This document shows positions 725 through 62,844 of a stretch of 64,000 nucleotides of DNA, one piece after another. The stretch's first letter is position 1. Each line of letters starts with the position of its first letter. The DNA lies in NCBI RefSeq assembly GCF_002831625.1, contig NZ_CP025116.1, positions 1,240,001 to 1,304,000 of the forward strand, in the 5' to 3' direction. The notes beneath the pieces are model-generated. The model was not told the origin of the DNA, ran no database searches, and saw nothing but the letters and a program-made list of their open reading frames with translations. The translations under genes were made by a program, and so were the position numbers. The DNA is from Nonlabens sp. MB-3u-79 (lineage in GTDB: Bacteria; Bacteroidota; Bacteroidia; Flavobacteriales; Flavobacteriaceae).

Positions 725-1519
725 TCAATCTACCTTAATCTCCAGCACCAGTCCTTCATGACTGCGCAAATTCATTACGGTGCCGTCTTCAAAGATGAGG
801 TATTGCCCCTTGATACCTTTTAATTTTCCAGCATGTTGAGTGGTTTTAGCAAGGTTAACGCTGGTCACTTTTGTGGGATATTGAAGTACAGGAAATTTAA
901 TTTGCCATTCTTTTTCATTCTCCAGAATGAATTCTTGGGCTTCTTGAGGTATAAATTGGAGCAAGCTTTCGCGAAAGCCTAATAGGTCAAGATCTTCTAT
1001 GCTATTTGTAAGCATTTTACGCCAGTTGGTTTTGTCTGCCACGTGGTCTTTTAAGGCAATTTCTGTAATACCAGCGAGGTAACGGTTAGGTGCTTCAAGA
1101 ATCGCAACGGCTTCATGAGCGCCTTGATCGATCCATCGGGTAGGGATTTGTGTTTTACGGGTCACCCCTACTTTTATATTACTGCTGTTAGCCAGGTAAA
1201 CGATATGTGGTTTGAGTTGGACTTTTTTCTCGTACTCTAGATCGCGATCTTCTTCATCCAGATGTGCTCGGCTCAACTCGGGTTTCATGATCCATTCTCC
1301 GGCTTGTGGGATTTGAGAAAAGCAATCATAGCAATATCCCTGACGCCATATTTTTTTATCAAGGCCGCAATTAAGGCATTCATTTCCTACATGCTTTAAA
1401 GAGATATTTTTATCCAGCAGTTGGTTCATGTGCAAAAAGTTATCTGGGAAAACAAGGTAATATTGAACGGTTTCCTTCAGTTCTGTTTGCATTTTTCTAA
1501 TCGTGCCGGTAAGGATCAT
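725..1519 (-). CDS. DUF2797 family zinc-ribbon protein
   Basis: A 264-residue protein matching the DUF2797 family, whose function is not established. Four cysteines (C48, C51, C63, C66; spacing CxxC-11-CxxC) should form a zinc ribbon. The following region, with a YLANSSNIKVGVTRKTQIPT stretch, resembles a GIY-YIG-like core, which is an inference. I chose ATG 1519 (MILTGTIRKM) because the upstream in-frame extension overlaps the divergent GH3-like gene and adds low-quality sequence. The palindromic repeat at 965-978 is read through in frame and encodes GFRESL. No partner gene gives a functional clue. The family call is good; the biochemical role is unknown. Confidence 0.85.
   Translation of the reverse strand: MILTGTIRKMQTELKETVQYYLVFPDNFLHMNQLLDKNISLKHVGNECLNCGLDKKIWRQGYCYDCFSQIPQAGEWIMKPELSRAHLDEEDRDLEYEKKVQLKPHIVYLANSSNIKVGVTRKTQIPTRWIDQGAHEAVAILEAPNRYLAGITEIALKDHVADKTNWRKMLTNSIEDLDLLGFRESLLQFIPQEAQEFILENEKEWQIKFPVLQYPTKVTSVNLAKTTQHAGKLKGIKGQYLIFEDGTVMNLRSHEGLVLEIKVD
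965..978. repeat. Palindrome family A (GCTTTCGCGAAAGC), copy 1
   Basis: Exact 14-bp palindrome inside the DUF2797 coding region, read as F-R-E-S. See the family finding. Confidence 0.95.
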
Positions 1520-1545
1520 GGTAGTAACTTTAAAAATTAAGGAAG

Positions 1546-1553
1546 TATCTTTG
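1546..1553 (+). promoter_or_regulatory. Candidate -7 element (TATCTTTG) of the GH3-like gene
   Basis: TATCTTTG matches TAnnTTTG and lies 34 bases upstream of the ATG at 1588. It sits in the short divergent spacer, just outside the chosen start of the DUF2797 gene. No good -33 element is visible. Confidence 0.5.
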
Positions 1554-1587
1554 AGACTGTAAAAATACCAATTAGGATTTGTAAAAT

Positions 1588-3120
1588 ATGGCAAACGCAT
1601 TACTCAATTCTGTCGTCTCGTGGTTTCTCAAGAAGCGCCTTCACGATATGGAGCTTTTTATGAAGCATCCACAGGAGTTGCAGGATAATATTTTACAAGA
1701 CCTTATTTATTACGCAAGGCATACAGAGGTAGGTAGGAAACACGGTTTTGACTCCATAAAATCTTATAGAGAATTTGCAGACAGAGTTCCAGTTTCTGGA
1801 TATACTGAAATGGAAGCCTCCATAGAAAGGTCTAGAAAGGGCGAGGGAAATATTTTCTGGCCTAGCGATATCAAGTGGTTTGCTATGAGTAGCGGGACGA
1901 CTAATTCCCGCAGTAAATACATACCAGTAAGCCAGCAGTCACTAGAAGACTGCCACTATGCAGCCGCAAAGGATTTGTTGTGTATGTACTTAAATAACAA
2001 TCCAGATTCTAAGATTTTTAAAGGAAAAGGATTGCGACTAGGAGGGAGTAAACAACTGGATAGAAAGTCTGGAACTGCCGCTGGAGATTTGAGTAGTATT
2101 TTGATAGATAACATGCCTTTTTGGGCAGATTACAGCTCTACTCCAGGAAATGAAGTAGCCTTAATGGCCGACTGGGAAACTAAAATGCCTGCGATTGTTC
2201 AAGAAACGATTAAAGAAGATGTGACCAGTCTTGCAGGCGTTCCTTCTTGGATGATGGTGCTTCTTAATAATGTACTGGAAACTACGGGCAAGGATCATGT
2301 TTTAGAAGTATGGCCGCAAATGGAAGTGTTCTTTCATGGAGGTGTTAGTTTTGACCCGTATGTAGACCAGTATAAAAAATTACTACCAGCAGATCATATC
2401 AAATATTACGAAACCTATAATGCGAGTGAAGGTTTCTTTGCTATTCAAGACACAAATGATAGTAAGGAATTGTTGCTCATGTTGGATTATGGAATTTTCT
2501 ACGAGTTTATTCCTATGAAAACCTATGATACGCCAGAGGAGAAGATCATACCTCTTAGCGAGGTAGAATTAGGGCAGAATTATGCTATTATTATTACTAC
2601 TAACGCTGGTTTGTGGCGCTATAAGATAGGGGATACGGTACGTTTTACGAGTAAAAGTCCTTACCGCATTAAAGTAAGTGGTCGTACCAAGCACCACATC
2701 AACGTATTTGGTGAGGAGTTGATCATAGAAAATGCGGAGGAAGCACTTAAGAAGACCATAGCAGAGATTCCTTGCTTTATAAAAGATTACACTGTCGCGC
2801 CTATATTTATGGAAGGTAAAGAAAAAGGAGCTCATGAATGGATGATTGAATTTGGGAGGCAACCTGACGATATTTCTACTTTCGCAAAAGCTTTAGACCA
2901 TCATCTTCAAAGAGTAAATAGTGATTACGAGGCAAAACGCTATAACAATATCACACTAACAGCGCCAAAAATAAACGTAGCAAATCCAGATGTGTTTTAC
3001 AACTGGCTCAAGCAAAAAGATAAACTGGGCGGCCAGCATAAAATCCCGAGACTGAGTAACTCTAGAGAATACATGGATGAGTTGCTTATTATTCATCGCA
3101 AAGGCAGACTGTTAAAATAA
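1588..3120 (+). CDS. GH3-like acyl-adenylating enzyme
   Basis: A 510-residue protein of the GH3 family, the ANL-type acyl-acid-amido synthetases first known from plants as auxin-conjugating enzymes; related genes are widespread in Bacteroidota. Visible blocks are the phosphate-binding loop MSSGTTNSRSKYIP (about residues 100-113), a YNASEGFFA block (about 278-286) matching the family Y-ASE motif, and a WRYKIGDT segment (about 344-351) typical of GH3. These features predict ATP-dependent adenylation of a small carboxylic acid, possibly followed by amide formation. The substrate is unknown. No signal peptide is present, so it should be cytosolic. The gene has its own -7 element and no operon partner, so context says little about its role. 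Confidence 0.9.
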   Translation: MANALLNSVVSWFLKKRLHDMELFMKHPQELQDNILQDLIYYARHTEVGRKHGFDSIKSYREFADRVPVSGYTEMEASIERSRKGEGNIFWPSDIKWFAMSSGTTNSRSKYIPVSQQSLEDCHYAAAKDLLCMYLNNNPDSKIFKGKGLRLGGSKQLDRKSGTAAGDLSSILIDNMPFWADYSSTPGNEVALMADWETKMPAIVQETIKEDVTSLAGVPSWMMVLLNNVLETTGKDHVLEVWPQMEVFFHGGVSFDPYVDQYKKLLPADHIKYYETYNASEGFFAIQDTNDSKELLLMLDYGIFYEFIPMKTYDTPEEKIIPLSEVELGQNYAIIITTNAGLWRYKIGDTVRFTSKSPYRIKVSGRTKHHINVFGEELIIENAEEALKKTIAEIPCFIKDYTVAPIFMEGKEKGAHEWMIEFGRQPDDISTFAKALDHHLQRVNSDYEAKRYNNITLTAPKINVANPDVFYNWLKQKDKLGGQHKIPRLSNSREYMDELLIIHRKGRLLK

Positions 3121-4157: not shown

Positions 4158-4195
4158 AAAAGCCTCAAGAAACCTTGAGGCTTTTCTATTTTTAC
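4158..4195 (+). terminator. Rho-independent terminator after the PfkB gene
   Basis: A 12-bp perfect stem (4158-4169 with 4174-4185) has a 4-base loop and is followed by CTATTTTT. It separates the PfkB gene from the purF-type gene. Confidence 0.85.
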
Positions 4196-4213
4196 ACCCT
4201 AATACATCCCATC

Positions 4214-6112
4214 ATGAGCGACCATTTAAAACACGAGTGCGGTATTGCACTTATCCGTCTTCTTAAACCATTAGAATACTATAAGGAGAAATACGGAACA
4301 GCTTTCTACGGTATCAATAAAATGTACTTAATGATGGAAAAACAGCACAACCGTGGTCAGGATGGTGCTGGATTTGCGAGTATTAAACTGGATGTAAAAC
4401 CTGGCCAACGTTATATTTCTAGAGTGCGCAGCAATGCCGCACAGCCTATTCAAGATATTTTTGCACAGATCAATGATCGCATCAATACAGAGCTGACTGA
4501 AAATCCTGAAATAAAAGACGACGTAGCAGCACAAAAAGCAAATATTCCTTATGTAGGAGAATTGTTGATGGGCCATGTGCGTTACGGTACCTTTGGTAAA
4601 AACAGCATAGAATCAGTACATCCATTCTTAAGACAGAACAACTGGATGCATCGCAACCTGATTATGGCAGGGAATTTTAATATGACCAACGTATTTAAGC
4701 TTTTTAATAAGCTCGTGGAATTAGGCCAACACCCTAAAGACATGGCAGATACGGTTACTGTAATGGAAAAAGTAGGTCATTTCCAAGACAGACAAGTCAG
4801 TAAATTATACAAAAAGTTTAAGTCTCAAGGTCTTTCTAAAATAGAAGCCAGTCCTAAAATTGCAGAAGAAATAGACGTTGCAAAAATACTGCGTAAGAGT
4901 GCTAAAGACTGGGATGGCGGTTATGCTATGGGAGGTTTAATGGGCCATGGAGATGCTTTTTTATTGCGTGATCCTGCAGGAATACGACCAGCTTATTATT
5001 ATCAAGATGATGAAGTAGTTGTAGTGGCAAGTGAGCGACCAGTGATACAAACGGCCTTTAATGCGCCGTTTGAAGAAGTAAAAGAATTGGATCCCGGTAA
5101 AGCCATTATTATTAAGAAAGATGGAACAGTTACTTTAGACCAAATCACAGAACCTTTAGAACGCAAAGCTTGTTCTTTTGAACGTATTTACTTTTCACGT
5201 GGTAGTGATGCAGAGATTTATCAGGAACGTAAGATGTTAGGAAAACTATTGTTTCCTGAGATTATGAAGAGTATTGATGACGATATTGACAATACGGTGT
5301 TTTCTTATATTCCCAACACAGCCGAAACATCATTCTACGGTATGGTAGAAGAAGGTCATGCCGTTCTCAACAAGCAGAAAAAAGATTTTATAATTGCAGG
5401 AGAAGGAAATCTGACGGAAGAGCAAGTGGAAGCCACGCTTTCGCGAAAGCTAAGAACAGAAAAAATAGCAATTAAAGATGCTAAACTTCGCACGTTTATA
5501 ACAGAAGACTCTTCTCGCGATGACCTTGTGGCTCACGTGTATGATGTGACTTATGGTGTGGTAAAGCCAGAAGATAATCTGGTGATAATCGACGACTCTA
5601 TAGTAAGAGGTACTACCTTGAAGAAGTCCATTCTTAAAATGATGGACCGATTGAATCCTAAGAAAATAGTAGTGGTTTCAAGTGCGCCGCAAATAAGATA
5701 TCCAGACTGTTACGGTATAGATATGGCACGATTAGAAGGATTAGTAGCTTTTAGAGGAGCACTAGCTTTACATAAAGATCGTGGCACATACGATGTGGTA
5801 GAAGAAATCTATAAGAAGTGCAAACTACAGACAGAGATGAAAGATGTAGATGTGGTAAATCACGTAAAAGAGCTGTACGAGCCTTTTACAGATCAAGAAG
5901 TTTCTGACAAGATAGGGGAGCTGCTTTCTGAGGAAGGTATAAAAGCTGAGGTAAAAATCATTTATCAAACGGTAGATAATTTACATAAAGCTTGTCCTAA
6001 GAATTTAGGCGACTGGTATTTTACAGGAAATTATCCTACAGACGGTGGTAATAGAGTGGTCAACCGAGCTTATATCAATTTCTTTGAAGGAAATGAAGAG
6101 CGAGCTTATTAG
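4214..6112 (+). CDS. purF: Amidophosphoribosyltransferase, long flavobacterial PurF type
   Basis: A 632-residue glutamine-dependent PRPP amidotransferase catalysing the first committed step of purine synthesis (PRPP plus glutamine to phosphoribosylamine). The start at 4214 gives MSDHLKHECGIALIR, so the nucleophile Cys9 needs removal of an 8-residue propeptide. The in-frame start further upstream lies inside the preceding terminator and is rejected. The N-terminal class II glutaminase includes NRGQDGAGF. The phosphoribosyltransferase domain carries the PRPP motif VIIDDSIVRGTTLKKS (about residues 456-471). It is over 100 residues longer than E. coli PurF. Bacteroidota often carry such a long version, and a shorter purF may exist elsewhere, so specificity is likely but not certain. 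A palindrome copy (5437-5450) encodes LSRK. Confidence 0.88.
   Translation: MSDHLKHECGIALIRLLKPLEYYKEKYGTAFYGINKMYLMMEKQHNRGQDGAGFASIKLDVKPGQRYISRVRSNAAQPIQDIFAQINDRINTELTENPEIKDDVAAQKANIPYVGELLMGHVRYGTFGKNSIESVHPFLRQNNWMHRNLIMAGNFNMTNVFKLFNKLVELGQHPKDMADTVTVMEKVGHFQDRQVSKLYKKFKSQGLSKIEASPKIAEEIDVAKILRKSAKDWDGGYAMGGLMGHGDAFLLRDPAGIRPAYYYQDDEVVVVASERPVIQTAFNAPFEEVKELDPGKAIIIKKDGTVTLDQITEPLERKACSFERIYFSRGSDAEIYQERKMLGKLLFPEIMKSIDDDIDNTVFSYIPNTAETSFYGMVEEGHAVLNKQKKDFIIAGEGNLTEEQVEATLSRKLRTEKIAIKDAKLRTFITEDSSRDDLVAHVYDVTYGVVKPEDNLVIIDDSIVRGTTLKKSILKMMDRLNPKKIVVVSSAPQIRYPDCYGIDMARLEGLVAFRGALALHKDRGTYDVVEEIYKKCKLQTEMKDVDVVNHVKELYEPFTDQEVSDKIGELLSEEGIKAEVKIIYQTVDNLHKACPKNLGDWYFTGNYPTDGGNRVVNRAYINFFEGNEERAY
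5437..5450. repeat. Palindrome family A, copy 2
   Basis: Exact GCTTTCGCGAAAGC inside purF, read as L-S-R-K. Confidence 0.95.
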
Positions 6113-6799: not shown

Positions 6800-7122
6800 T
6801 ATATATTCTTTTTAATTAGTTATTTATCGAATTATAAAATTAGGCACAAAAAGGGGACTGTTAAAATTATCCACGTTATATTATCCTTAAAACATTATTG
6901 CTTTAAATGAAGAGTTGATAAGTTAAAAGTTTATGGTATCCCTTTTAATTTATAGATTTAACTAGTTGATTTTTTTTCTACAGCCTCTAGACCTTGCTTT
7001 AACTTCATAAAGTTGCAGTTTTATTACTTTATTGAGCAGCAGTTAAAAAAACTCATGACTCATAACTTATTTTCAAAATACTTAGTAAGTCTAAAAAATA
7101 AATTTTAGAGGCGTTGAAAGCT

Positions 7123-7142
7123 TTTCAAGTTCAAGTTCAAGT
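7123..7142 (+). repeat. TTCAAG hexamer run upstream of the helicase promoter
   Basis: Three to four tandem TTCAAG units end about 8 bases before TATCTTTG. A similar run precedes TACATTTG at 28740. Confidence 0.7.
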
Positions 7143-7150
7143 TCATTCCT

Positions 7151-7158: not shown

Positions 7159-7161
7159 AAT

Positions 7162-10100
7162 ATGTCTCAATCACCTACTACTTTTTATAGCGCTAGTGCT
7201 GGATCTGGTAAGACCTATACTCTCGCGCAAGATTACCTTACACTGCTTTTTAAAAACCCTTATGCTAATGGATACAGGCGTATTCTAGCGGTTACCTTTA
7301 CTAATAAGGCGGTAGGTGAGATGAAAGAACGTATTCTTGATTACTTGTATAAATTCACTTTTGACGAGTTAGATGAGGGGGTTTTAGGAATAGTAAATCA
7401 TATTAAAAACGAAACTGGCTTGGACAACGAGCAGTTCAAGAATAAAGCCCGAGCTATTTTTAATCAGCTGTTACACGATTATTCGGCCTTTGATATTGTA
7501 ACTATTGACTCTTTCAACCATCGTATTTTAAGAACTTTTGCAAAAGATATTGATTTACCAGATAATTTTGAGGTAGAACTGGATAGCAAACGCCTGATTT
7601 CAAAAGCCATTCATAACCTTATTGCGAGAGCAGGAAAAGATAAAAAACTCACACAGCAATTAGTAGACTTTTCTTTATCAAAGATAGAAGAAGGTAAAAG
7701 CTGGGATATAGAATACGATCTTCAAGATATTGCTAAGCTTATTCAAAATGAAAACCATTATCCTTTTCTCAAGCAATTAAAAGGGAAAAAGGTGGAAGAC
7801 TTCTTAGGCTTGCGTGAAAGTTTGTATAAGAAAATTAAATTTGCAAAAAGCGAGCTAGAAGAAAAAGGCAAAAGCCTTTTTCAAGAATTTACGGAGAACG
7901 GTCTAACTTCTAATGATTTCTTTTATAAAGCTAGTCGTGTTTATAAATTCATTACAGAAAGTGCGCAAGGAAATTATTCCATTGCGCCAGATACAGGTTA
8001 TGTAAAAGACATGGCAACGGCAACTTTAGAAAATAAAGCTGCAAGTGCATCAGCAAAAGATTTTATTGAAAGTAAACGTGCAGACTTGGTAAATTTATCA
8101 GAGTTCTATACGGAGAATTGTGGTGCGATCATGTTTTATAAAAACATAGCCAGCAGCCTCACGCCTTTATCGCTGCTCAATGAATTGCTTCATGAAATAG
8201 ATAAGATTAAAGTTGCAGAGCAAATAGTGCCTATTTATGAATTCAACGCTTTATTAGCAGAACAAATAAAAGACGAACCAGCTCCTTTTATATATGAACG
8301 ACTTGGTGAGCGGTACCGGCATTATTTTATAGACGAATTTCAGGATACCAGCCGCATGCAATGGGAAAACCTCGCGCCACTTATAGAAAATGAACTTCAG
8401 CAGCAACGAGAGAATGAAGAACGAGGCAGTTTGATGCTGGTGGGTGATGCAAAGCAGTCCATCTATAGATTTCGTGGTGGAGATGCAGACCAGTTTCTGA
8501 GATTACTTGCCACTCCAGATCTGTTTATGTTGCCTAAAAAAGATGAAACACTCGAATTCAACTGGCGTAGTTATGATGAGGTTATTAAATTTAACAACGA
8601 GTTTTTTGATTATTATGGGGACCACCTTCATAGTGAGGTGTATCAGACATTGTATAAGAAATACCTACAGCAACAAACAAGAGCAAAAGAGGGCGGTTTT
8701 ATACAAATAGACTTTATTGATAAGGATTTTGAAGCTCCTTATGACACAGACGATTTTAATAATGCGTACCCCTATCAGGTATATCAACAAATTAAAAAGG
8801 CGCACAAAAATGGTTTTGCATTAGGCGAGATTTGTGTTCTTGTGCGAGCAAATAAAGAAGGTCATGAGATCGCAAAATATCTAGTGTCTCAAGAAATGCG
8901 GGTAGTTTCTGGAGATAGTTTGCTGGTATATGCGTCGCATAAAGTGCAGTTGTTAGTCTCTTTAATGAGGATGGTGCAGGCGCCAGAGCAACAAAAGCCT
9001 CGTTTTGAATTTTTGATGGCCTATACCAGAGTTTTTGAGATCGAGGATATTCATTCTTTTGTTACTACGCACCTCCATCAGAGTTTATTGGAATTAGGCA
9101 AAGGTCTTATGGCTTTTGAAAAGGATGATTTAGGTGCCGCTTTCGCGAAAACGGCATTATTTCAAGCCACTGAACAAGTAGCAGAATCTCTAGGGTTATT
9201 TAAAAAGCAAGACACTAGATTACAGTCCTTTCTAGAATTTCTATTTGAGTATTCTACCGGCTATGAAGTATCGCTCTCTGACTTTTTAGAACATTGGGAA
9301 TTGAAAAAGGAAAAATTGAGCGTACCAGCTGCAGCTGATGCTGACGCTGTGCAAATCATGACCATTCATAAGTCTAAAGGACTGGAATTCCCAGTGGTCA
9401 TAGTACCTCATTGCGATAAAAAACTAGATGACGCTAGAAATCCAACCGGCTGGGTTTCTGTAAAGGAAGAAGAATATGAAGGTTTTGATCAAGTGTATAT
9501 CAATTTAAAAAAAGAAAACGAATTTTATCCAGGTACTGCTCCAGAGATCTATGCAAACAACCTCGGCAAAGTTCAAATGGATCAAATCAATACGTTATAC
9601 GTCGCTTTTACTAGAGCGAGAGAGCAATTATACATCAGTGCCGAAAGTGCCAATCCCAAAACGAATAACTACTCGTCACTTTTAAAAGAGTTTATAGAGA
9701 AAAAAGGAATTGAATTAGAGACTCATAATGGTTATGAGTCGGCACAAATAGGAGATGTGAATCGCAAATCTGTAGCTATAGAAACAGAAGAAAGCCAGAT
9801 GCTGGAGGAGTACCAAGTATGTTTAGATTCTGAAAGATTGAGTATTTCTACGAGAAAAGGTTTGCTGTGGTCAAGTGGCGCAAGTGAGGCCATTCAAAAA
9901 GGTAATGTGTTGCATGAGTATCTTTCCTTGATGAAGGATTCTTCCAACCTTGATAAGGTGCGTAAAAAGATAAATAGAGATTTTTCCCTGTCTAAAGAAG
10001 AACAAAAAGAGATGAAAAAGATGATTGAGGCAGTCATCAGTCATCCAGATCTCGTTCCTTATTATACAAAAGGAATCCATGTGCTCAACGAGCAACCTAT

Positions 10101-13272: not shown

Positions 13273-14688
13273 TTAATTACTTGTAAGGGAAACGTTGTCT
13301 AATTCATAGGTGCCATCATTATTGTCATCATCAAATCCAGTGTATCTAAAAGCTATATGTCCTACACTCGTTACACAATCTAATGAGACATGGTTTGAAA
13401 AAATCCAATTAGGAAAAAATTCCTCATCAGAAACAATTATGGCATCTGACAGAGCTTCCCAAGTAGCAGCAACAAGGCCGGAATTAGTTCCATCCCAATC
13501 AGAACTAAATAGGACTTGCATGTTGGAGTTATTAGCAAAACTATTGGAAGTTTCAAAGGAGAACACTTCCCCTGTTTGTGCATCAAAATCAAATGCTGGG
13601 GTAATAAGCCAGGAAGCAGTATTTGTATCTCTTGAGTTTCTAGAACTACAACGAACACTTTTGCCTAAGGAGGCGTTTTGACCGCTAGAGGTATATACCT
13701 CCCATGTTTCCGATCCTGCTTCAATAAGGTTGGTCCACCCGGTAGGCATTGCCACAGCACCATTAGATTGAGTTCCAAAGTTTTCAGATAATAATATATT
13801 GGACCCCGCATTAGCGACAGTTCCACAGGTAACGACATCAAAACTACATCTTAGGGCAGGTTCAAAATCAAAATCTGCGGGATAGTTGACAGAAATCACG
13901 TACCTATCGTCTCCAAAATCTCTATTCAAGATCGCAGTTATAGAACCATTTCCTGCTGGTAATCTCAGTGCTTTAAAGTCAGAAAAAGTACTTGTTTCTA
14001 AAATTATAGAGTCAAAAAAGTCAAAACAAGTCTCTAGCATTCTTACCCCATCAAACTGATCAGTTGCTTCAGAAGCAAAAGTCCTGTTTGCTGAAATATC
14101 AGCCTCAGTAAATTGAGTAGCTTCCAGCTCAATAAGAGTCAGTAGTCGTTGATCACTGAATTCTGAAGAAGCAGTCAATACGGTGGGGATGATTTCAAAT
14201 ATCTCATTATCTCGTAAAACAGCTGTGTCTTGTAAAGCAGGAGTGATTTTTTCAATGGTCCCATTGGTTCCGTTGAGTCCTATAACAGGTACTCCATTAG
14301 CTTTTCCTGCAGTTAGTCCATCTAGTTTGACGTAAACCCGCTGACCAATCGCATAGGTGGTAAATAACGGACTGTTATCTATAAGAATTTTTATTCCCGC
14401 GGTAGGGTTTTCTATCGCATCTTGAAGGATCAATTCTTCAAAGTAGTTCCCTGCCTCATCACTAGAGATGACGTACCCTTCTATAAATTGCTCGTTATTT
14501 TCAAAAGTAACAATACCAGTTGACGACTGCCCTATCTGTCCTATCACAGCAGACATATCGATTAAGTTAGCAGGAGGGTCTATAGCTACTGTTGCCGTGT
14601 CTGGAATGCTAAAGTCGTCGTCTTCGACACAAGAAAAAGCGATTATCGATGCTAAAGCAATGGCGAAAATGTGGTTGATATTTTTCAT
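13273..14688 (-). CDS. DUF5689 lipoprotein with choice-of-anchor-J-like C-terminus
   Basis: A 471-residue predicted lipoprotein. The signal peptide ends in lipobox IAFSC with lipidated Cys20, followed by acidic residues that in Bacteroidota often favour surface export. The N-terminal half resembles DUF5689 (for example FIEGYVISSDEAGNYFEELI), an OB-fold-like region. The C-terminal part, starting about residue 296 (ILLSENFGTQ) with a WEVYTSSGQ block, resembles choice-of-anchor-J/MAM-like beta domains. It lies 33 bases downstream of a TonB receptor gene on the same strand, so the two form a SusCD-like pair in which this protein may capture the ligand. The divergent secreted nuclease suggests nucleic acids or phosphate esters as substrate; that is inference. 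Confidence 0.82.
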   Translation of the reverse strand: MKNINHIFAIALASIIAFSCVEDDDFSIPDTATVAIDPPANLIDMSAVIGQIGQSSTGIVTFENNEQFIEGYVISSDEAGNYFEELILQDAIENPTAGIKILIDNSPLFTTYAIGQRVYVKLDGLTAGKANGVPVIGLNGTNGTIEKITPALQDTAVLRDNEIFEIIPTVLTASSEFSDQRLLTLIELEATQFTEADISANRTFASEATDQFDGVRMLETCFDFFDSIILETSTFSDFKALRLPAGNGSITAILNRDFGDDRYVISVNYPADFDFEPALRCSFDVVTCGTVANAGSNILLSENFGTQSNGAVAMPTGWTNLIEAGSETWEVYTSSGQNASLGKSVRCSSRNSRDTNTASWLITPAFDFDAQTGEVFSFETSNSFANNSNMQVLFSSDWDGTNSGLVAATWEALSDAIIVSDEEFFPNWIFSNHVSLDCVTSVGHIAFRYTGFDDDNNDGTYELDNVSLTSN

Positions 14689-14721: not shown

Positions 14722-17565
14722 TTAGAACCTTAGGTATAAGTTGAGGTAATAGGTTGTTCCATTACCAAAGAAATAGCGTGGTGCAAATACTTCTTGTGGG
14801 TTATTAGCATCATCTCGTGTGGATCTAAAGTTGGAATTACGAGACTGTTCAAAGCCACCTGTTTTGTATTCTTGACCAAACACATTATTAATAGTTGCAA
14901 AGAAGCCAATATACTTGTCATCGATTCTCCAGGATTTACCACCGATCACGTTCCACAACAAGTAATTGTCAAATTGCTCTTGCTTTAAAAGTTCATTAGC
15001 CACCGCACTATCAAAGTCATTAAATTCCATGCCGTCATAGTCCAATCTAAAATTAGCAGACCTTCTCAAGTTACTGATATCGGCATATGCATTTGCAAAG
15101 TAATTTGCTGTTATACCTATATTCCAATATTCTGGATCCCGGTATTCAAAACCTATTTGTAAGGCTGTTTCTGGCCCGCCAGCTACGTGATAATCCTTAA
15201 GACTAGTAGTTCCATCACCAAAGGAAAGCGGACCTCTAAAATCGTCACTTGTAAGATAAAGATGAGGGTTGTTGGTATACACATTCTGTCCTAATGCTGC
15301 GGCAGCTTTGAACTTAATAGTAGGAGTCATTTGAATTTCTAGACCCAGCTCGATACCAGCGTTACGCCTTTCTATTTGAGTCATTACTTCCTGTACAAAA
15401 GCACTGCCGTCATTGAGAGGTAGTCCAGTAAGATCTTCTGTAAAGTAGAATCCTATATCGGTACCCTTGGTAAACTGAGTATAGTAAGCAGTGAACCTTG
15501 CTTTAATGATGGGGGTGGAGTAGATATAGCTTAGGTCTGTACTGTACGACTTTTGAGATTCAAGACCGATGACAGTTTCATTATTTTGCCTTGAATTGCT
15601 GAAAGAATTTCTAATCGTTGGAGCTTGAGAAATTGAGGCAGCATTAAAATCAATAAACTGTTGACCAGAGATTTTATAAGTAGCACCACCCTTAAAACTA
15701 ATATCTGTAAATTCCAGTTGTTTACTTTTTCCAAAAGATGCTGCGCCAGGGAAGTTACCGTTCTCAAATTTACCATCTCTTTGATAAACAGTTCTGCTTA
15801 GGCTTGCAGCGACAAAGAAATCTACTTTTTTAGTTTTAAACTGAGTTTGAGCAAATCCAGCAATCACATTTGCATTGATGTTGTAATTGTATTTGTAACG
15901 GTCTCCTATTCCTGCAATACGGTTGGGCGTTCTAAGGTTAGACTGTGCTGCTTGATCCAGGTTGATCTCACTTGTTTCTTCTGCAAAGAAATCTACATCT
16001 AGGAAGCCTGTGCCGCCTAGAAGGTCATTGATCATCGCATAGTTTTCACTAATTAAATTACGGTATCTCATACCCGCATTAAAAAGAATGTTTTCTGTAA
16101 GGTCAGCAGTGATGACCGTATTTACTGATAATTGTGTATCGTCTATACGGTCCTCTTGAATAGCGTATAAGGAATTTCCGCCGGCAGCTCTCAAGCTTCT
16201 GTTGGCCTCGTATAAGCTGTTCCAGTCCAACTGTCCATCATTAAGGAATTCCTGTTGAGCTTGGTAAGCACGTTGATAATCGATGGGGTCCTGACCATTT
16301 CTTAAGAAATAACTAGGTAGGTTCTGGTAGTAATCTGGAAGAGGGTTTCTCGCACCACCTATATAAGCATTTTGACCTAAAGTAGGATCTATTCTGGTAC
16401 CACCATTATCGATACGTGTATTTCCTATTTTACCAAATTGATACCCCAGGTTTGTGTTTAACTTAAGCTTGTCGTTGACGCTCCAGTAGTGGTTCAACAT
16501 AAAAATAGGCTCTTCGATCTCTCTCACTCTACTATTGCGTTGCACGTTATTTTGCTCTCCCCACAATGGATTGTAGGCGATGCCTTTAAGATCTCTAACT
16601 TCTTGAGTCATTGCTGTACGACGCCCACGTCTATTAGGCGTATAAAGACCAGTAAAATTGATGGAGTGTGCATCGTTTAATTTTTTCTCCACAGAAAGTC
16701 CCAATGAGTTGGCATCGTATAAAGTGCCTTCTACAAAACCCTCTTCACTGGCCCTTCTTGATAGGTTGATCGCATAGGACCAGCCGTTGTTCCATAATCC
16801 AGAACGGTGAGATAGCATAAAGCGACCTCTATAACTTCGGTTAGAACTCGCATAAGATATTTGTGTTCCTGCGCGTTGTTGTGAGGCTCTCATATCAATG
16901 CTTTGTACACCTGCAAAACCACCGAAGCTTTGATCTGCGGCACTAAGTCCCATACTAAAGCTTTGGTTGCGTTGTAAATCGTTGACTCCACCCCAGTTGC
17001 TCCATTGTGGTCTTCCAGAGAACTGTTTGTTCATCTCGATACCGTTGATAAGCACCTTACCGTCTTCACTGTTTAAACCTCTAGGTCTAAAAAAAGTAGC
17101 GCTGAAATCGTATGCGGCAGCTCTCAAAAACTGGTCTTTAGAAGCTTGTAGCAATCCAGAAAAATTGTTTGCTGCGTTTTCATCATCTGCCAGATCATTT
17201 TCTGTTAAAGAAATAATTCCCTGAGATTGGGAGATGTCAGAGTTGTCCAGTTGCAGATAAAGAGGATCAATATTCACTCTGTTGATGCTATCGATCACCA
17301 CAGGAATTGTTTTTGAATAATACCCATTTTTTAAAACAGCTATTTTTTGATCTCCTAAAGGAATAGCTCCAGTTACTATAAAATAGCCGTTGGCATCAGT
17401 TATTGCCTTGAATTTTGTACCCAAAACACGAATACTCACACCAGGGATAGGCTCCTCAGTTGTGTCGTCAATTACGCGACCTTTAAGGAGCTCTTGTGCC
17501 ATTCCTAGACCAGAAGCCAACATGAAAACAGCCAAAACAAGTATGTTAAGTTTTTGATGAATCAT
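14722..17565 (-). CDS. SusC-like TonB-dependent outer-membrane receptor
   Basis: A 947-residue TonB-dependent transporter. After the signal peptide (MIHQKLNILVLAVFMLASG, cleavage near GMAQ) comes a carboxypeptidase-regulatory-like domain (about 25-110; LLKGRVIDDTTEEPIPGVSI). A plug domain follows (VLINGEMN-type segment, about residues 170-180), then a long barrel ending in the aromatic NLYLRF. I chose ATG 17565 because the 14-residue upstream extension precedes the signal peptide. It should import a large ligand using TonB energy, with the DUF5689 lipoprotein downstream as partner. The substrate is not readable from sequence. The promoter should lie in the 120-base divergent spacer to the nuclease gene, but no clear -7 element is seen. 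Confidence 0.9.
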   Translation of the reverse strand: MIHQKLNILVLAVFMLASGLGMAQELLKGRVIDDTTEEPIPGVSIRVLGTKFKAITDANGYFIVTGAIPLGDQKIAVLKNGYYSKTIPVVIDSINRVNIDPLYLQLDNSDISQSQGIISLTENDLADDENAANNFSGLLQASKDQFLRAAAYDFSATFFRPRGLNSEDGKVLINGIEMNKQFSGRPQWSNWGGVNDLQRNQSFSMGLSAADQSFGGFAGVQSIDMRASQQRAGTQISYASSNRSYRGRFMLSHRSGLWNNGWSYAINLSRRASEEGFVEGTLYDANSLGLSVEKKLNDAHSINFTGLYTPNRRGRRTAMTQEVRDLKGIAYNPLWGEQNNVQRNSRVREIEEPIFMLNHYWSVNDKLKLNTNLGYQFGKIGNTRIDNGGTRIDPTLGQNAYIGGARNPLPDYYQNLPSYFLRNGQDPIDYQRAYQAQQEFLNDGQLDWNSLYEANRSLRAAGGNSLYAIQEDRIDDTQLSVNTVITADLTENILFNAGMRYRNLISENYAMINDLLGGTGFLDVDFFAEETSEINLDQAAQSNLRTPNRIAGIGDRYKYNYNINANVIAGFAQTQFKTKKVDFFVAASLSRTVYQRDGKFENGNFPGAASFGKSKQLEFTDISFKGGATYKISGQQFIDFNAASISQAPTIRNSFSNSRQNNETVIGLESQKSYSTDLSYIYSTPIIKARFTAYYTQFTKGTDIGFYFTEDLTGLPLNDGSAFVQEVMTQIERRNAGIELGLEIQMTPTIKFKAAAALGQNVYTNNPHLYLTSDDFRGPLSFGDGTTSLKDYHVAGGPETALQIGFEYRDPEYWNIGITANYFANAYADISNLRRSANFRLDYDGMEFNDFDSAVANELLKQEQFDNYLLWNVIGGKSWRIDDKYIGFFATINNVFGQEYKTGGFEQSRNSNFRSTRDDANNPQEVFAPRYFFGNGTTYYLNLYLRF

Positions 17566-17677
17566 TTCTAAAATTAAGAAATTTTTATGAAAAAATCTAT
17601 AAAACACTGTTTTCTAATCTTTTAAAATATTTTTTTATGAAATTTGTAGCTAACTTTACAGGAACATAATTTTTAAT

Positions 17678-17685: not shown

Positions 17686-18786
17686 ATGTGTAGAAGTTTA
17701 TTTCTTTTTTTACTAGGGGTTCTCGCTTTCGCGAAAGCGGTACCAGCACAAACTACTTCAAAGGCAAAACAGTACAAAGTGAAGACCGTTGCCTTTTATA
17801 ACTTAGAGAACCTTTTTGATATAGAGAACGACCCGAGCATCAATGATGAAGCCAGCCCTATCATGGAAATGGCCGAAGGAATTAGAGCAGATGTCTACCA
17901 AAAGAAGTTGACCTCTATGGCACGAGTGATACGCAAAATAGGTGCTGATAAGTCAGAATCGGCTCCATCTGTGATAGGTGTTTGTGAGATTGAAAACAGA
18001 AAAGTACTGGAAGACTTGGTCAATCACCCTCTACTCATCGAGTTTGATTATGGGATTGAGCATTACAATTCTCCAGATCGCCGTGGCATCGATACCGGAC
18101 TTTTGTATAAGAAAAGCGATTTTAAAGTATGGAATAGCGTGAGCAAGGAGCTGGTTATTTATGATAAAAGTAGCGGTAATCGCATTTATACTCGCGATCA
18201 GTTAGTAGTAACAGGTGAGCTGGATGGAGATAAGATGAGTCTTATCGTAAATCACTGGCCATCAAGGCGAGGCGGCGAACAAAAAAGCCGTCCTAATCGA
18301 GTTGCGGCTGCAGCCTTAAACAAAAGAGTGATCGATTCTTTACACAGTATTGATGCGATGTCTAAGATAATTATAATGGGAGATTTAAATGATGATCCTA
18401 TTAACGAGAGTGTTTTGGTAACCCTTAATGCACAAAAGGACAGAGAAGATGTACGGCCACAAATGATTTACAATCCTTACATTCAAATGTTAAAGGATGG
18501 ATTCAATACACTAGCTTATCGGGATGCAGGAAATATTTTTGATCAGATCATGTTTACCTATCCATTGTTAAATGAAGCAAATCAAGTAGGGTATCGTTAC
18601 TATCAAGCAAACATTTACAATCCAAGTTTTATGACCAGCAAAACCGGCAGGTACAAAGGCTACCCATTACGCAGCTTTGCAGATGGTGGTTTTACAGGAG
18701 GTTTTAGCGATCACTTTCCAGTGTATGTATATTTAGTCAAGGAAATCACAACTACCGAAGATTTGAAGACTCCTTCAAATAATTGA
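17686..18786 (+). CDS. Secreted endonuclease/exonuclease/phosphatase (EEP) family protein
   Basis: A 366-residue exported EEP-fold metalloenzyme, probably a nuclease. The signal peptide is MCRSLFLFLLGVLAFAKAVPA; its end is encoded by a family A palindrome (17725-17738). Catalytic blocks are FYNLENLFD (about 38-46), VCEIEN (metal-binding Glu), DRRGIDTGLLY, VNHWPSRRGG (His), IMGDLNDDP (Asp/Asn) and a terminal FSDHFPVYV (Asp-His). These fit a DNase I-like hydrolase acting on phosphodiester bonds outside the cytoplasm. It is divergent from the TonB receptor/DUF5689 pair, and this neighbourhood suggests extracellular nucleic-acid breakdown linked to uptake, an inference. A different phosphoester substrate remains possible. 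Confidence 0.88.
   Translation: MCRSLFLFLLGVLAFAKAVPAQTTSKAKQYKVKTVAFYNLENLFDIENDPSINDEASPIMEMAEGIRADVYQKKLTSMARVIRKIGADKSESAPSVIGVCEIENRKVLEDLVNHPLLIEFDYGIEHYNSPDRRGIDTGLLYKKSDFKVWNSVSKELVIYDKSSGNRIYTRDQLVVTGELDGDKMSLIVNHWPSRRGGEQKSRPNRVAAAALNKRVIDSLHSIDAMSKIIIMGDLNDDPINESVLVTLNAQKDREDVRPQMIYNPYIQMLKDGFNTLAYRDAGNIFDQIMFTYPLLNEANQVGYRYYQANIYNPSFMTSKTGRYKGYPLRSFADGGFTGGFSDHFPVYVYLVKEITTTEDLKTPSNN
17725..17738. repeat. Palindrome family A, copy 4
   Basis: Exact GCTTTCGCGAAAGC within the signal-peptide codons of the secreted nuclease, read A-F-A-K-A. Confidence 0.95.
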
Positions 18787-23351: not shown

Positions 23352-23365
23352 GCTTTCGCGAAAGT
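23352..23365. repeat. Palindrome family A, copy 5 (one mismatch)
   Basis: GCTTTCGCGAAAGT, 15 bases after the DUF1501 stop, flanked by GTTTC and GAAAC which lengthen the inverted repeat. Confidence 0.85.
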
Positions 23366-28873: not shown

Positions 28874-28887
28874 GCTTTCGCGAAAGC
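28874..28887. repeat. Palindrome family A, copy 7
   Basis: Exact GCTTTCGCGAAAGC between the riboswitch aptamer and the receptor start, so it lies in the regulated leader RNA. Confidence 0.95.
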
Positions 28888-43809: not shown

Positions 43810-43823
43810 GCTTTCGCGAAAGC
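43810..43823. repeat. Palindrome family A, copy 10
   Basis: Exact GCTTTCGCGAAAGC in the spacer between the lipoprotein terminator and the phosphate transporter. Confidence 0.95.
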
Positions 43824-46231: not shown

Positions 46232-46563
46232 CTTTATGTTAGGGGAATACCAGTTGAATCTATGGGAATCGAATCTTCCTTTTTCTTTTTAATAGCCTAC
46301 GGATAGACCCGTTTTAGTTTAAGAGAAAGCATAACATCATTTCTATTTATCTTCACACAAGTCACTGCATTCTATTTTTAATTCATTTAAACAATAGGGT
46401 GTATAAGTGTTCCGCTTTCGCGAAAGCGGTATTCCAATAAGTAGCCTATAAAAACACGAACTCCTATACGCGTACAGGCTTGTGGTGCTTACTTGTGGTC
46501 CATAAATAGGCAGAAGCAGCATTCCCTATATCAAATTTTCAGGGGCTTCTTGATGCGCATAAA
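46232..46563. other. Non-coding spacer with palindrome copy 11
   Basis: No gene or RNA recognised. It contains a family A palindrome (46414-46427) and an almost perfect 16-base palindrome CCTATACGCGTACAGG (46463-46478). Confidence 0.6.
46414..46427. repeat. Palindrome family A, copy 11
   Basis: Exact GCTTTCGCGAAAGC, extended to CCG...CGG, in the spacer between the convergent transporter and efflux genes. Confidence 0.95.
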
Positions 46564-51357: not shown

Positions 51358-52731
51358 TTATTTTTGATTGATAAATTCAGGGGTGTTCAAAATGGTTTCT
51401 AGATTTGCTTTTTCAGAAATCACTTGATACATACTCTGTAAATAAGTTGCCTGTGTGCTGTACAATTGTGTTTGTGCTTGTCTCAAATCAAAGCTGGAAG
51501 AAATCCCTTCTCTAAATTTAATTTGGTTCTTGTTTTCAATACGCTCTGCTAGTCTTAAGTTATCCTTACTGGTGCTGTAATTATCTATAGCAGTCTGATA
51601 ATTGTTAAGAGACCTCTGGTAACTCAATCGTATTTCTTCTCTGGTGCGATCTAGATCGGTAAGAGCTTGATCCCAGGCAATTTTTGTACGATCTTGAGCT
51701 GCTTTTCTACCTAGCGAACTAAAAATAGGGAGATTGATGCTCAAACCTGCAATAGAATTGTCAAACCAAAGCTGGTTGTTGTTAAAAAACACAAAATTAT
51801 TGTTAGCTGTTAAGGTTCCATAATTTATAAAACCACTTACAGTAGGTAAGCTTTTTGCTCTTTCTAGTTTATATTCTAATTTACGTTGTTGAGTAAAATT
51901 ATAAGCGATTTGATAATCCACAGATAGTTCTAAATCTAGCGCCTCATTACTGAAAGAAGGATTTATATTTTTAATAGCAAGTGACTCAAGATTATCTTTT
52001 AAAGTAATTACTGCTTTAAGCTCTATACCTAACGCTAGTTTTAACATATCTAATGCTATTTCTTTTTGTCTTATCGCGCTATTTAATTGATTGTTAAGTT
52101 GTGAAAGAGTTATTTGGAGCTGCTCAACATCTTCTTCCTCAGCAAGTCCATTTTCAAAAACTTTAGTTGTTTCATTCAGACTTTCTTGAACATTATTGCG
52201 GTTTTTAGTCAGGATATTTATGTTTTCCTGAGTGAGCAATACCCCACCATAAGCATTAATAATTCCTTTTCTCACTTCTAGCTTTGTCTTATTATTTGCG
52301 TTTTCTGAAAAATCGATAAATGTAGATGAGGCTTCTAATGCTACAATATAAGAACCATCAAAAATAAGTTGAGACAGTGTTGCCGTTAGGCTCATGTTTT
52401 GTCTAGGGCCAAAAATGCCAGGAACAAATTCACCTTCTGGTCCACCACTAAAGGATGCTGGTAAGAAGGAAACAGGTTGTATCAATTGATTTTGATAATT
52501 AAGGCCACCGTTAATTTGTGGCAAACCAGCCGCAGTAGTTTCCCATTTTTGCTTAAGTGCTTTAGCAATGTCTCTTTTTGCATTAATGGCTTGGTAGTTA
52601 TGTTCTAGCCCATGGTTTATCGCTTCTTCTAAGGAAAAGCTGTAAGAGTCCTGGTTTGGGGTTTGTTGTGGGTACGCTTTCGCGAAAGCGAGAACACTAA
52701 AAACCCAAACATATATAAATTTATAGTTCAT
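51358..52731 (-). CDS. TolC family outer-membrane efflux channel
   Basis: A 457-residue outer-membrane efflux protein forming the exit duct of the RND system. The signal peptide is MNYKFIYVWVFSVLAFAKA, followed by YPQQ; its cleavage region is encoded by a family A palindrome (52676-52689). Two long helical repeats follow, with SLEEAINHGLEHNYQAINA near the start and FREGISSSFDLRQAQTQLY near the end, both typical of the OEP family. Its ATG directly follows the tetR stop codon (TAA-ATG), so the genes are co-transcribed and probably coupled. Confidence 0.94.
   Translation of the reverse strand: MNYKFIYVWVFSVLAFAKAYPQQTPNQDSYSFSLEEAINHGLEHNYQAINAKRDIAKALKQKWETTAAGLPQINGGLNYQNQLIQPVSFLPASFSGGPEGEFVPGIFGPRQNMSLTATLSQLIFDGSYIVALEASSTFIDFSENANNKTKLEVRKGIINAYGGVLLTQENINILTKNRNNVQESLNETTKVFENGLAEEEDVEQLQITLSQLNNQLNSAIRQKEIALDMLKLALGIELKAVITLKDNLESLAIKNINPSFSNEALDLELSVDYQIAYNFTQQRKLEYKLERAKSLPTVSGFINYGTLTANNNFVFFNNNQLWFDNSIAGLSINLPIFSSLGRKAAQDRTKIAWDQALTDLDRTREEIRLSYQRSLNNYQTAIDNYSTSKDNLRLAERIENKNQIKFREGISSSFDLRQAQTQLYSTQATYLQSMYQVISEKANLETILNTPEFINQK
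52676..52689. repeat. Palindrome family A, copy 12
   Basis: Exact GCTTTCGCGAAAGC within the TolC-like signal peptide, read L-A-F-A-K-A. Confidence 0.95.
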
Positions 52732-61061: not shown

Positions 61062-61069
61062 TATATTTG
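61062..61069 (+). promoter_or_regulatory. Candidate -7 element (TATATTTG) of the GNAT-aspartate kinase operon
   Basis: TATATTTG fits TAnnTTTG and ends 14 bases before the ATG at 61084. Confidence 0.6.
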
Positions 61070-61083
61070 CTTAAACTAGAATC

Positions 61084-61557
61084 ATGATTGAGGTAAGAGA
61101 AGCTACAAAAGAAGACTTTCCTAGAGTATTAGAACTCATTACTGAGCTGGCTATTTTTGAAAAAGAACCAGATGCTGTTGAGGTAACTGTAGAAGAACTG
61201 GAGCAAAACGGATTGGGAGAACAAGCCCTTTTTAAATGCTTTGTAGGATTATACGACGGTCATATAGAGGGTATCAGTTTGTGTTACCCTCGTTTTTCTA
61301 CTTGGAAAGGCAAGACGATTCATTTAGAAGATCTTATTGTAACAGAAAAAATGAGAGGTAAAGGTTTAGGAAAAGCCCTCTACGACAAAGTCCTGCAATA
61401 TGCTTATGATCATCGAGTGAAACGAGTAGAATGGGTAGTGCTGGACTGGAATACCAATGCAGTAGCGTTTTATGAACGTACAGGAGCTACTATGATTAAA
61501 GACTGGTATCTTGCACAAATGGATCAACAGTCTTTAGAAAAATATATAAAAGGATAG
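61084..61557 (+). CDS. GNAT family N-acetyltransferase
   Basis: A 157-residue acetyl-CoA-dependent transferase. The CoA loop is MRGKGLGKALYDKVLQYA (about residues 90-107), preceded by the core strand HLEDLIVTEK. The following VEWVVLDWNTNAVAFYERTGA resembles diamine/thialysine acetyltransferases (SAT2-like), so a polyamine or lysine-analogue substrate is possible. Its stop codon abuts the aspartate kinase ATG (TAG-ATG), so they are co-transcribed. The pairing with a lysine-pathway enzyme is suggestive but proves nothing about the substrate. Confidence 0.9.
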   Translation: MIEVREATKEDFPRVLELITELAIFEKEPDAVEVTVEELEQNGLGEQALFKCFVGLYDGHIEGISLCYPRFSTWKGKTIHLEDLIVTEKMRGKGLGKALYDKVLQYAYDHRVKRVEWVVLDWNTNAVAFYERTGATMIKDWYLAQMDQQSLEKYIKG

Positions 61558-62844
61558 ATGAAGATATATAAATTTGGTGGGGCATCAGTTAAAGACGCTG
61601 ATGGAGTACGTAATGTGTTGCATGTATTGCAAGTTATGGGTGCTGAAGATTTAGGTGTCGTCATTTCTGCTATGGGAAAAACCACTAATGCCTTAGAAGA
61701 TGTAATTTCCAGTTATCAAGATAATGATGCTTATTATCTGGATCTTATTGATGAGCTACACCTTAAACATTTGGCGGTAATTGAAGGTTTGGAGATGCCT
61801 TCTGATGGTATTAAAGAGGAATGGTTGTTCCGCTTTCGCGAAAGCGGAATTAAAAAAACAGTAAAAGCAATCATAGAGTCTCTCAAAGGCGAAATGCTGC
61901 GCAACCAAAGTAAAAACTACAGTTTCCTCTACGATCAAGTGGTAAGTCATGGAGAGTTGTTATCCACTAAAATAGTAGCGGCTTTTCTCAACGCTTGTGA
62001 TATTCCATTGGTATGGAAAGATGCACGACAGCTTATAAAAACCGACCAAAAATACCGTGATGCTGGTGTGAACTGGAAAGAAACAGAAAATTTAATCATT
62101 CAATCTTGTAAAGGTCAGCCGTTTATTACACAAGGTTTTATAGGGTCTGATAACAATGGTTTTACCACCACCCTAGGTAGAGAAGGAAGTGATTATACTG
62201 CAGCAATTCTAGCCTACTGCTTGGATGGCACTGGGGTAACCATATGGAAGGATGTGCCTGGAGTTCTTAACGCAGATCCCCGGGTTTTTGAAAAAACAAT
62301 ATTATTAAATAAGATTCCCTACAACGAGGCTATTGAGCTGGCATTTTATGGCGCTTCTGTCATTCACCCTAAAACATTACAACCTCTTCAAGGAAAAGAG
62401 ATTCCGCTTTATGTAAAATCTTTTATGAACCCAGAGGAGGAAGGCACTGTGATAACGGCTGTGGATACTATTGAGCCTTTAACACCTTGTTATATCGTTA
62501 GAAAAAACATGGTTTTCCTGAAGATATCTTCTAGGGATTTTAGCTTTATAGGAGAGCATAATATTTCTGATATTTTTCAAGAATTAAGTATTCACAAGAT
62601 GCAAGTAGGCTTGCTACAGAATAGTGCGATTAGTTTTTCATTATGTGTAGAAGATAAATACGCTAAAATAAATGAACTTCTTAAGGATCTAGAATCTCGT
62701 TATCGCGTAAGTCATGTAGAAGGAGTTTCCCTATATACAGTAAGGCATTATGATGGAGATGCCATCGAGTTTATAGAGTCTGGAAAGACGGTTTTATTAA
62801 AACAACGCGCACAAGAAACGCTTCAATTAGTCGTTAAAGAATAG
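61558..62844 (+). CDS. Aspartate kinase
   Basis: A 428-residue monofunctional aspartokinase, first step to lysine, methionine, threonine and diaminopimelate. The N-terminal signature is MKIYKFGGASVKDADGVRNV; the substrate block TTLGREGSDYTAAILAYCL and KDVPGVLNADPRVF follow. The C-terminal ACT region (about 310-410) is present and should bind a feedback effector. A palindrome copy (61832-61845, extended to a 22-base perfect palindrome at 61828-61849) encodes FRFRES at residues 91-96. It is second in an operon with a GNAT gene and has no homoserine dehydrogenase fusion. Confidence 0.95.
   Translation: MKIYKFGGASVKDADGVRNVLHVLQVMGAEDLGVVISAMGKTTNALEDVISSYQDNDAYYLDLIDELHLKHLAVIEGLEMPSDGIKEEWLFRFRESGIKKTVKAIIESLKGEMLRNQSKNYSFLYDQVVSHGELLSTKIVAAFLNACDIPLVWKDARQLIKTDQKYRDAGVNWKETENLIIQSCKGQPFITQGFIGSDNNGFTTTLGREGSDYTAAILAYCLDGTGVTIWKDVPGVLNADPRVFEKTILLNKIPYNEAIELAFYGASVIHPKTLQPLQGKEIPLYVKSFMNPEEEGTVITAVDTIEPLTPCYIVRKNMVFLKISSRDFSFIGEHNISDIFQELSIHKMQVGLLQNSAISFSLCVEDKYAKINELLKDLESRYRVSHVEGVSLYTVRHYDGDAIEFIESGKTVLLKQRAQETLQLVVKE
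61832..61845. repeat. Palindrome family A, copy 13
   Basis: Exact GCTTTCGCGAAAGC within the aspartate kinase gene; flanking bases extend the perfect palindrome to 22 bases (61828-61849). Confidence 0.95.

Follow-up and report, generated by a model that had tools for sequence, protein, structure and literature searches.

Why does one exact 14-bp palindrome recur every few kilobases along the chromosome of Nonlabens sp. MB-3u-79, a member of the Flavobacteriaceae? The question is raised by a 64,000-bp stretch of this genome (contig NZ_CP025116.1, positions 1,240,001 to 1,304,000; hereafter the window), in which a first-pass annotation made from the sequence alone had listed 11 exact copies and one-mismatch copies at 9139 and 23352. 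Our search of the window recovered all of these and added one two-mismatch copy. These 14 matches compare with 0.21 matches at two or fewer mismatches in dinucleotide shuffles of the same DNA (maximum 2 in 100 shuffles). From base composition, 0.0001 exact copies are expected per 64 kb; the figure first given was 0.0002. As had been described, nine of 13 copies lie in open reading frames (ORFs) and four in spacers, and the genic copies are read as AFAKA or AFAKT (4 cases), FRES (3) and LSRK (2). The feature is real and strongly maintained, and a palindromic uptake or self-DNA signal is, in our tentative judgement, its best explanation.

The complete genome, a single contig of 3,184,776 bp, holds 563 exact 14-mers, or one per 5.7 kb, where about 0.005 are expected from base composition; the pattern of the palindrome read backwards does not occur in it at all. 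The palindrome is equally a property of the genus, with 288 to 857 copies in each of the 23 Nonlabens genomes examined (that of MB-3u-79 included). The genome-wide count, proposed earlier as a check, lies far from the base-composition expectation. Beyond the genus the word is rare. Among 36 other relatives compared with Nonlabens only one has copies, six on one contig, and in a phylum-wide sample matches were found in 22 of 395 genomes, the 21 besides MB-3u-79 holding 1 to 6 copies each. When the 12-bp core was searched for in Flavobacteriaceae (397 genomes, 237 genera), abundance was restricted to Nonlabens (577 to 685 copies in the four genomes sampled) and to two other genera, with 445 and 917 copies; the next highest counts were 21, 19 and 19. 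The 24-bp extended form matched 13 stretches in the named genome collection, 12 of them from Nonlabens and one from an uncultured Dokdonia assembly. In the two other rich genera the core is identical and the flanks differ, with approximately GTAA or GTAC after the 14-mer (27 copies) versus GRAAY in Nonlabens, and near-misses are relatively commoner (17 exact copies to 8, and 7 to 3). These two genera join in a single-gene tree (92/76; three of the 29 rows had no sequence and were dropped), which leaves their relation to Nonlabens open. A literature search on the core strings found neither the 12-mer nor the 14-mer in the best-matching papers listed, and other searches, judged from their listings, likewise gave nothing; as far as these searches show, the palindrome appears to be undescribed.

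The 14-mer forms the rigid centre of a symmetric site that spans about 40 bp. The site is laid out as GCTTTCGCGAAAGC, followed outward by GRAAY and then by an A/C-rich, G-poor arm that extends to about +18. In 78 copies from MB-3u-79 the first position outside the 14-mer is G in 87%, position +4 is A in 76% and position +10 is A in 73%, and out to about +18 the frequency of G is mostly below 10%, with A and C favoured. The DNA 5' of the core is correspondingly T/G-rich on both strands. This bias is at least equally strong in 71 intergenic copies (orthologous copies of relatives included) and so does not stem from coding; a periodicity of three bases in the flanks we put down partly to the codons of the favoured reading frame. 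Each arm carries 4.8 bits of information over 13 positions. The left and right arms of one copy match each other no more than composition predicts, and with no such covariation they behave as two independent half-sites, not as a hairpin. The core itself tolerates little variation: 864 kb of the MB-3u-79 genome contain 139 exact, 23 one-mismatch and 8 two-mismatch copies, compared with 0, 0 and 2.1 for palindromes built from shuffled halves. Away from the 14-mer, TCGCGA occurs about as often as expected (69 observed versus 67), TTCGCGAA more often (16 versus 7) and CGCG less often (636 versus 850), so the long word, not the core hexamer, seems to be the unit.

Conservation was followed at 100 exact sites in 20 syntenic Nonlabens stretches. 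These give 1900 site-by-genome pairs, of which 719 align and 1181 do not; the counts, like the spacing values from the same material, come from one syntenic stretch and are not independent across related genomes. The 14-mer is exact and uninterrupted in 384 of the 719 aligned pairs. In identity bands of <70, 70-75, 75-80, 80-90 and >=90% it is conserved in 42/123, 150/312, 80/138, 50/71 and 62/75 pairs, while the conserved fractions for control 14-mers within 200 bp are 0.030, 0.034, 0.095, 0.135 and 0.447. Sites, genic or not, are conserved at orthologous positions well above the neighbouring DNA. Not one of the aligned pairs has the site wholly gapped in the other genome, and in 86 pairs the other genome has extra bases inside the site. 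Where orthologues align, copies arise by substitution, not insertion. A TonB-receptor gene illustrates the process: at one shared column the 14-mer is exact in 8 of 20 orthologues (read as SAFAKA or NAFAKA), and the other 12, aligned without any gap, differ there in codons and mostly in residues as well (SVFSKA, SAFSKA, SLFSKA, SAFAKG, STFAKG). Two of the holders, in stretches L081 and L082, have a gene only 56% identical to that of the window. Given the variable residues at this column, we reject peptide conservation as the cause. Such unfixed residues, together with the genome-wide excess, support the proposal of the first-pass annotation that the palindrome acts at the level of DNA, in the manner of HIP1 or uptake sequences. 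The 100 sites fall into 27 orthologous groups, the largest present in 12 of the 20 genomes and none common to all; the sites therefore turn over, while density holds, with per-20-kb counts staying between 3 and 8 across the syntenic stretches.

Copies of the palindrome repel one another. For the first 100 copies on the chromosome the coefficient of variation (CV) of spacing is 0.69, versus 0.99 under the null (P ~0.0001), and there are 5 gaps shorter than 1.5 kb where 25 are expected. In the 20 syntenic stretches the CV is 0.53, and one of 80 gaps is shorter than 1 kb versus an expected 24%. Counts per 20 kb are accordingly under-dispersed (index 0.46, P 0.003; 34 stretches with GC >0.345). 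Spacing, which had been put forward earlier as a point to examine, is more even than chance. Copies thin out with increasing distance from parS (Spearman -0.42, P 0.007; 40 stretches of 20 kb), a trend that weakens to -0.24 (P 0.17) in the same 34 stretches, that is, without the GC-poor ones. The density per 20 kb is 3.9 copies up to 200 kb from parS and 2.1 at 1,400-1,600 kb, or 3.2 at that distance when the GC-poor stretches are left out; copy density tracks GC content (0.71). The spread from origin to terminus is roughly even, and a strongly origin- or terminus-biased segregation site is rejected. The stretch at 2,580,001-2,700,000 (GC 0.32-0.34), which is likely an acquired island, is nearly devoid of the palindrome, with 3 copies in 120 kb.

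On a finer scale, 59 of the 139 copies in 864 kb are non-coding, while non-coding DNA makes up 12-20%. The density in gaps of the MB-3u-79 genome is 0.62 per kb for convergent (9 sites), 0.56 for divergent (12) and 0.43 for codirectional (33) neighbours; an apparent preference for divergent gaps (1.18 per kb versus 0.35 in convergent ones) was an artefact of counting 19 orthologous stretches and is gone in this genome. Copies in codirectional gaps lie nearer the end of the upstream gene (median relative position 0.33, n = 33) and not at promoters. Within genes, 22 of 80 copies fall in the first 30 codons (9.7% expected), several of them in signal-peptide-like stretches, and 2 of 80 in the last 30. 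The palindrome had been called frame-neutral. All three frames are indeed used, but unequally, the AFAKA frame accounting for 48 of the 80 genic copies. We read this placement as that of a signal put where it is tolerated.

In these respects the palindrome resembles DNA-uptake sequences and HIP1, not Chi, and we file it as a variant of the dispersed exact-signal kind rather than as a proven uptake signal sequence (USS, Pasteurellaceae) or DNA uptake sequence (DUS, Neisseriaceae). It is comparable to HIP1 (GCGATCGC) of cyanobacteria as an exact palindrome of strong consensus and unsettled role that is over-represented in one lineage. It differs from HIP1 in its 14-bp length and arms, its host phylum, Bacteroidota, its frequency of about one per 5.7 kb and its clear self-repulsion; moreover, the two methyltransferase families searched for are not genus-wide, and away from the motif the core hexamer shows no depletion. 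With USS and DUS it shares a strong consensus, birth by substitution, even spacing, a non-coding excess and clade-specific types, and with the Pasteurellaceae signals only, weaker conserved flanks. USS copies are reported to arise by substitution and not by insertion (PMC1626085), and even spacing, a non-coding excess and a non-palindromic sequence are attributed to uptake sequences in an excerpt of PMC1939737. The same core with genus-specific flanks in Nonlabens and other genera is like the Hin and Apl types of USS. Unlike USS and DUS, the Nonlabens motif is palindromic with symmetric arms, and 20 of 23 Nonlabens genomes lack pilus-type ATPases over the cut-off.

We infer that a protein reads the palindrome and that the site works like an uptake signal. 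The 14-mer would be the core of a symmetric recognition site of about 40 bp for a sequence-specific protein, and selection or molecular drive would maintain approximately one site every few kilobases. A homodimeric surface receptor, belonging to a pilus-independent flavobacterial transformation machine, would prefer DNA fragments that bear the site, and the imported fragments would recombine and so spread sites through the core genome. One site per fragment might be enough, and this sufficiency is our proposed reason for the mutual repulsion of copies; palindromy would let each site work in either orientation. We favour an uptake signal because the consensus is strong in the 864 kb counted, because copies are born by substitution, are evenly spaced and are in excess in non-coding DNA, because flank types differ by genus, sites turn over and the low-GC stretch is nearly empty, and because the uptake machinery has counterparts here. 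ComEC was found in 44 of 44 genomes, and the window carries, at 13273-17607, an adjacent DUF5689 and CarboxypepD_reg pair (looked at in the window only) like that of Riemerella anatipestifer. In that species the adjacent genes RA0C_RS04915 and RA0C_RS04920 are each essential for natural transformation; the former encodes a carboxypeptidase-regulatory-like protein with a predicted outer membrane location, the latter a DUF5689 protein, and the authors propose that RS04920 binds double-stranded DNA outside the cell and RS04915 passes it through (excerpt of PMC8459023). Homologues of the DUF5689 protein are present in named Nonlabens. We infer a link between the pair and the palindrome, and the pair is our candidate receptor. 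R. columbina is also reported to prefer its own DNA in uptake (excerpt of PMC7965970), which we count in favour of an uptake signal. The full form of the proposal, a first palindromic uptake sequence, read both ways by a dimeric surface receptor in pilus-independent transformation of Bacteroidota and with flank dialects at the level of the genus, is advanced with real reserve. As a side observation, the secreted-looking Exo_endo_phos_3 gene that lies divergent to the pair carries a site itself, and its product might be the nuclease that the uptake scheme still lacks.

Several points weigh against an uptake signal. We know of no palindromic uptake sequence. That uptake sequences are not palindromes is also said in the excerpt of PMC1939737, in which one-mismatch copies of the Actinobacillus 10-mer (947) outnumber exact ones (438), so that a strong consensus is not universal among uptake sequences. 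Uptake genes, the pair included, are widespread in Flavobacteriaceae (excerpt of PMC8459023), yet only three of 237 sampled genera are motif-rich, and a change of receptor must be assumed. Flavobacterium carries such genes, though Flavobacterium johnsoniae was not competent when tested (excerpt of PMC7965970). For Nonlabens we found no competence, and no competence test was made. The PilB/T2SS-type ATPase (T2SSE) scores above the cut-off in just three of the 23 Nonlabens genomes, not including MB-3u-79, and uptake by a type IV pilus is rejected as the general route. Four other Flavobacteriales genomes (G035, G281, G624 and G037; 100 kb each) have no comparable motif, and no family-wide code was seen in them. 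Finally, viral contigs carry copies with host-like flanks, which an uptake signal does not predict.

The main rival is an intracellular dimeric chromosome-binding protein. The sites would be bound inside the cell by a homodimeric organiser that acts in looping, at domain boundaries or in condensin loading, and a single site would serve each domain; we consider this possible, if on the unlikely side. A perfect dyad with independently varying arms is what a dimer would read, the regular spacing and the roughly even spread from origin to terminus fit a structural role, copies in codirectional gaps lie towards the upstream gene's end and not at promoters, and some viral contigs carry the palindrome too. 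Known sites of this type, those of Noc (NBS), ParB (parS), SlmA, MatP and RacA, are likewise dimer-bound palindromes (about 12-16 bp), present in tens of copies and biased towards origin or terminus. The MB-3u-79 genome, unlike these, has 563 copies with no strong bias to either end of the chromosome, and the weak trend with distance from parS declines further without GC-poor stretches. A canonical parS is present separately, near 962 kb, and 20 of 23 Nonlabens have just one ParB_N; an extra ParB or Noc or a variant parS is rejected, and copies do not concentrate near parS. No protein that reads the sites was found, in searches by protein family that did not extend to a profile of all genes, and sites of regulator proteins are usually more relaxed in consensus (PMC1626085). 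A role akin to that of HIP1, in which the palindrome is upheld in connection with a methyltransferase acting on its core, seems improbable to us. The phenomenology is HIP1-like (one lineage, densely marked with a palindrome that is kept very exact), HIP1 goes with methyltransferases, and CGATCG methyltransferases are nearly coextensive with over-represented HIP1 (excerpt of PMC4390886). CGCG, as noted, is somewhat low outside the 14-mer. TCGCGA, however, is at expectation there, and neither methyltransferase family is common to the genus: the C5 family PF00145 is absent from 9 of 21 Nonlabens, the N6/N4 family PF01555 is absent or below cut-off in 10 of 21, and four of the 21 (MB-3u-79, G007, G008 and G010) have neither. 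Of the other motif-rich genomes, G613 lacks PF00145 and G629 lacks PF01555. We reject a shared C5 or N6/N4 methyltransferase, the D12, Eco57I and type I methylase families not having been searched, and the methylated core suggested in the first-pass annotation finds little support.

A Chi-like sequence, which would tell a RecB-like or AddAB nuclease to spare and recombine self DNA, has a similar order of density, near one per 5.7 kb, and is likewise genome-wide; the T/G-rich DNA 5' of the core on both strands and a RecB-like helicase gene in the window (Table 1; below the NCBIfam equivalog cut-offs) could be fitted to it. But Chi is short and asymmetric and has no strong consensus, whereas the Nonlabens motif is long, exact and palindromic, so that no orientation is possible. 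The contrast can be seen in the counts in Table 6 of PMC1939737 (excerpt), with 1008 exact and 8855 one-mismatch copies for Chi of Escherichia coli and 5648 and 1830 for HIP1, and we give the Chi-like alternative little weight. Still less can be said for a site of a global transcription regulator, or for an RNA hairpin or terminator. Such a role might be suspected from the large non-coding share of copies and from the excess in the first 30 codons, but the three kinds of gap (convergent, divergent and codirectional) are alike in density, most genic copies (58 of 80) are found past codon 30 and the arms do not co-vary. A hairpin RNA is rejected for the last reason and because nothing in the window matches Rfam above the gathering score. 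Least credible of all are copies of a small mobile or REP-like element. There are hundreds of near-identical copies, with clusters in some islands of other genera, and large insertions would escape notice in the 1181 of 1900 pairs that do not align. The core is exact, however, while the flanks are degenerate, copies stand in all three frames, and genomes with and without the site align gap-free at the TonB-receptor column; with none of the 719 aligned pairs wholly gapped, an insertion element is rejected, for the aligned pairs only.

HIP1, USS and DUS form a class whose function is still debated, and the motif brings into it a palindrome, dispersed and exact, from Bacteroidota. For comparison it offers sister genera free of the motif, spacing that follows a measurable rule, and a genus made up of environmental species. 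Should the motif be an uptake signal, Bacteroidota would gain a recognition code for gene transfer together with a candidate receptor; if it is the site of a chromosome protein, it would mark a new architectural system. Either way, the motif and its flanks may tag DNA that has moved from the Nonlabens lineage into other genera and phages. Copies with Nonlabens-like flanks are found in islands or at single places of other genera, and those of genus g34, perhaps Flavobacterium, are mostly without such flanks (2 of 21 score >6, versus a median of 10.1 for copies from MB-3u-79). At least 80 stretches of viral contigs have copies, with Nonlabens-like flanks in 11 of 85 among the copies listed. The signal may travel with transferred DNA and not be excluded from phages.

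The positions of the copies in the window and of the genes that concern them are given in Table 1.

Table 1. Copies of the 14-bp palindrome and candidate uptake genes in the 64-kb window (gene calls are ORF-based)
Feature	Position	Strand	Context
Exact copy	965..978		Within DUF2797 gene 725-1600(-)
Two-mismatch copy	2878..2891		Within ORF 1588-3120(+); possibly a decayed site or a chance match
Exact copy	5437..5450		Within ORF 4175-6112(+)
One-mismatch copy	9139..9152		Within RecB-like helicase gene 7114-10314(+)
DUF5689 (PF18942) protein, candidate reader	13273..14688	-	Same domain as Riemerella RA0C_RS04920
CarboxypepD_reg (PF13715/PF13620) protein, candidate uptake pore	14722..17607	-	Domain and gene order as Riemerella RA0C_RS04915
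Exact copy	17725..17738		Starts at codon 14, in signal-peptide-like stretch of Exo_endo_phos_3 gene 17686-18786(+)
One-mismatch copy	23352..23365		Spacer
Exact copy	26442..26455		Within PD40-repeat gene 25635-26741(-)
Exact copy	28874..28887		Spacer upstream of TonB receptor gene
Exact copy	35273..35286		In gene 33647-35416(+), which matches 1-deoxyxylulose-5-phosphate synthase domains
Exact copy	39162..39175		Within HD-domain gene 38275-39606(-)
Exact copy	43810..43823		Spacer, codirectional ORFs on either side
Exact copy	46414..46427		Spacer, convergent ORFs on either side
Exact copy	52676..52689		Starts at codon 15, in signal-peptide-like stretch of outer-membrane efflux gene 51358-52731(-)
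Exact copy	61832..61845		Within amino-acid kinase gene 61558-62844(+)

Three of these sites can be followed individually in relatives. Those at 17725 and 28874 belong to orthologous groups with exact copies in 6 and 7 of 19 syntenic relatives, respectively. The one-mismatch copy at 23352 is exact in four of the five relatives that align there, and the fifth has GCTTTCGCGAAA and a gap.

Some further observations were made on copies and repeated words. Several genera (genomes G186, G534, G638, G511 and G520) have two copies exactly 933 bp apart, apparently in one transferred island, and homologous proteins lie near the copies in G186 and G033. The viral contig pieces L157, L175, L143, L165 and L161/L144 have two or three copies each, of which one or more have host-like flanks; matches to integrase and tape-measure proteins were found in L157, and to terminase and portal proteins in L143. 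In L036 the copies at 7071 and 8071, which are 1,000 bp apart with nearly identical flanks, look like a local duplication. Genus g261 (L302-L306) is enriched in a different, non-palindromic motif, CTTCGGAAA, with 14 occurrences in 60 kb of G509 versus 1.1 expected and 4 in 40 kb of its congener G708. A second repeated word containing a palindrome occurs in the window itself, as CAGACTTAAGTC (5 copies) and AGACTTAAGTCTGC (4 copies).

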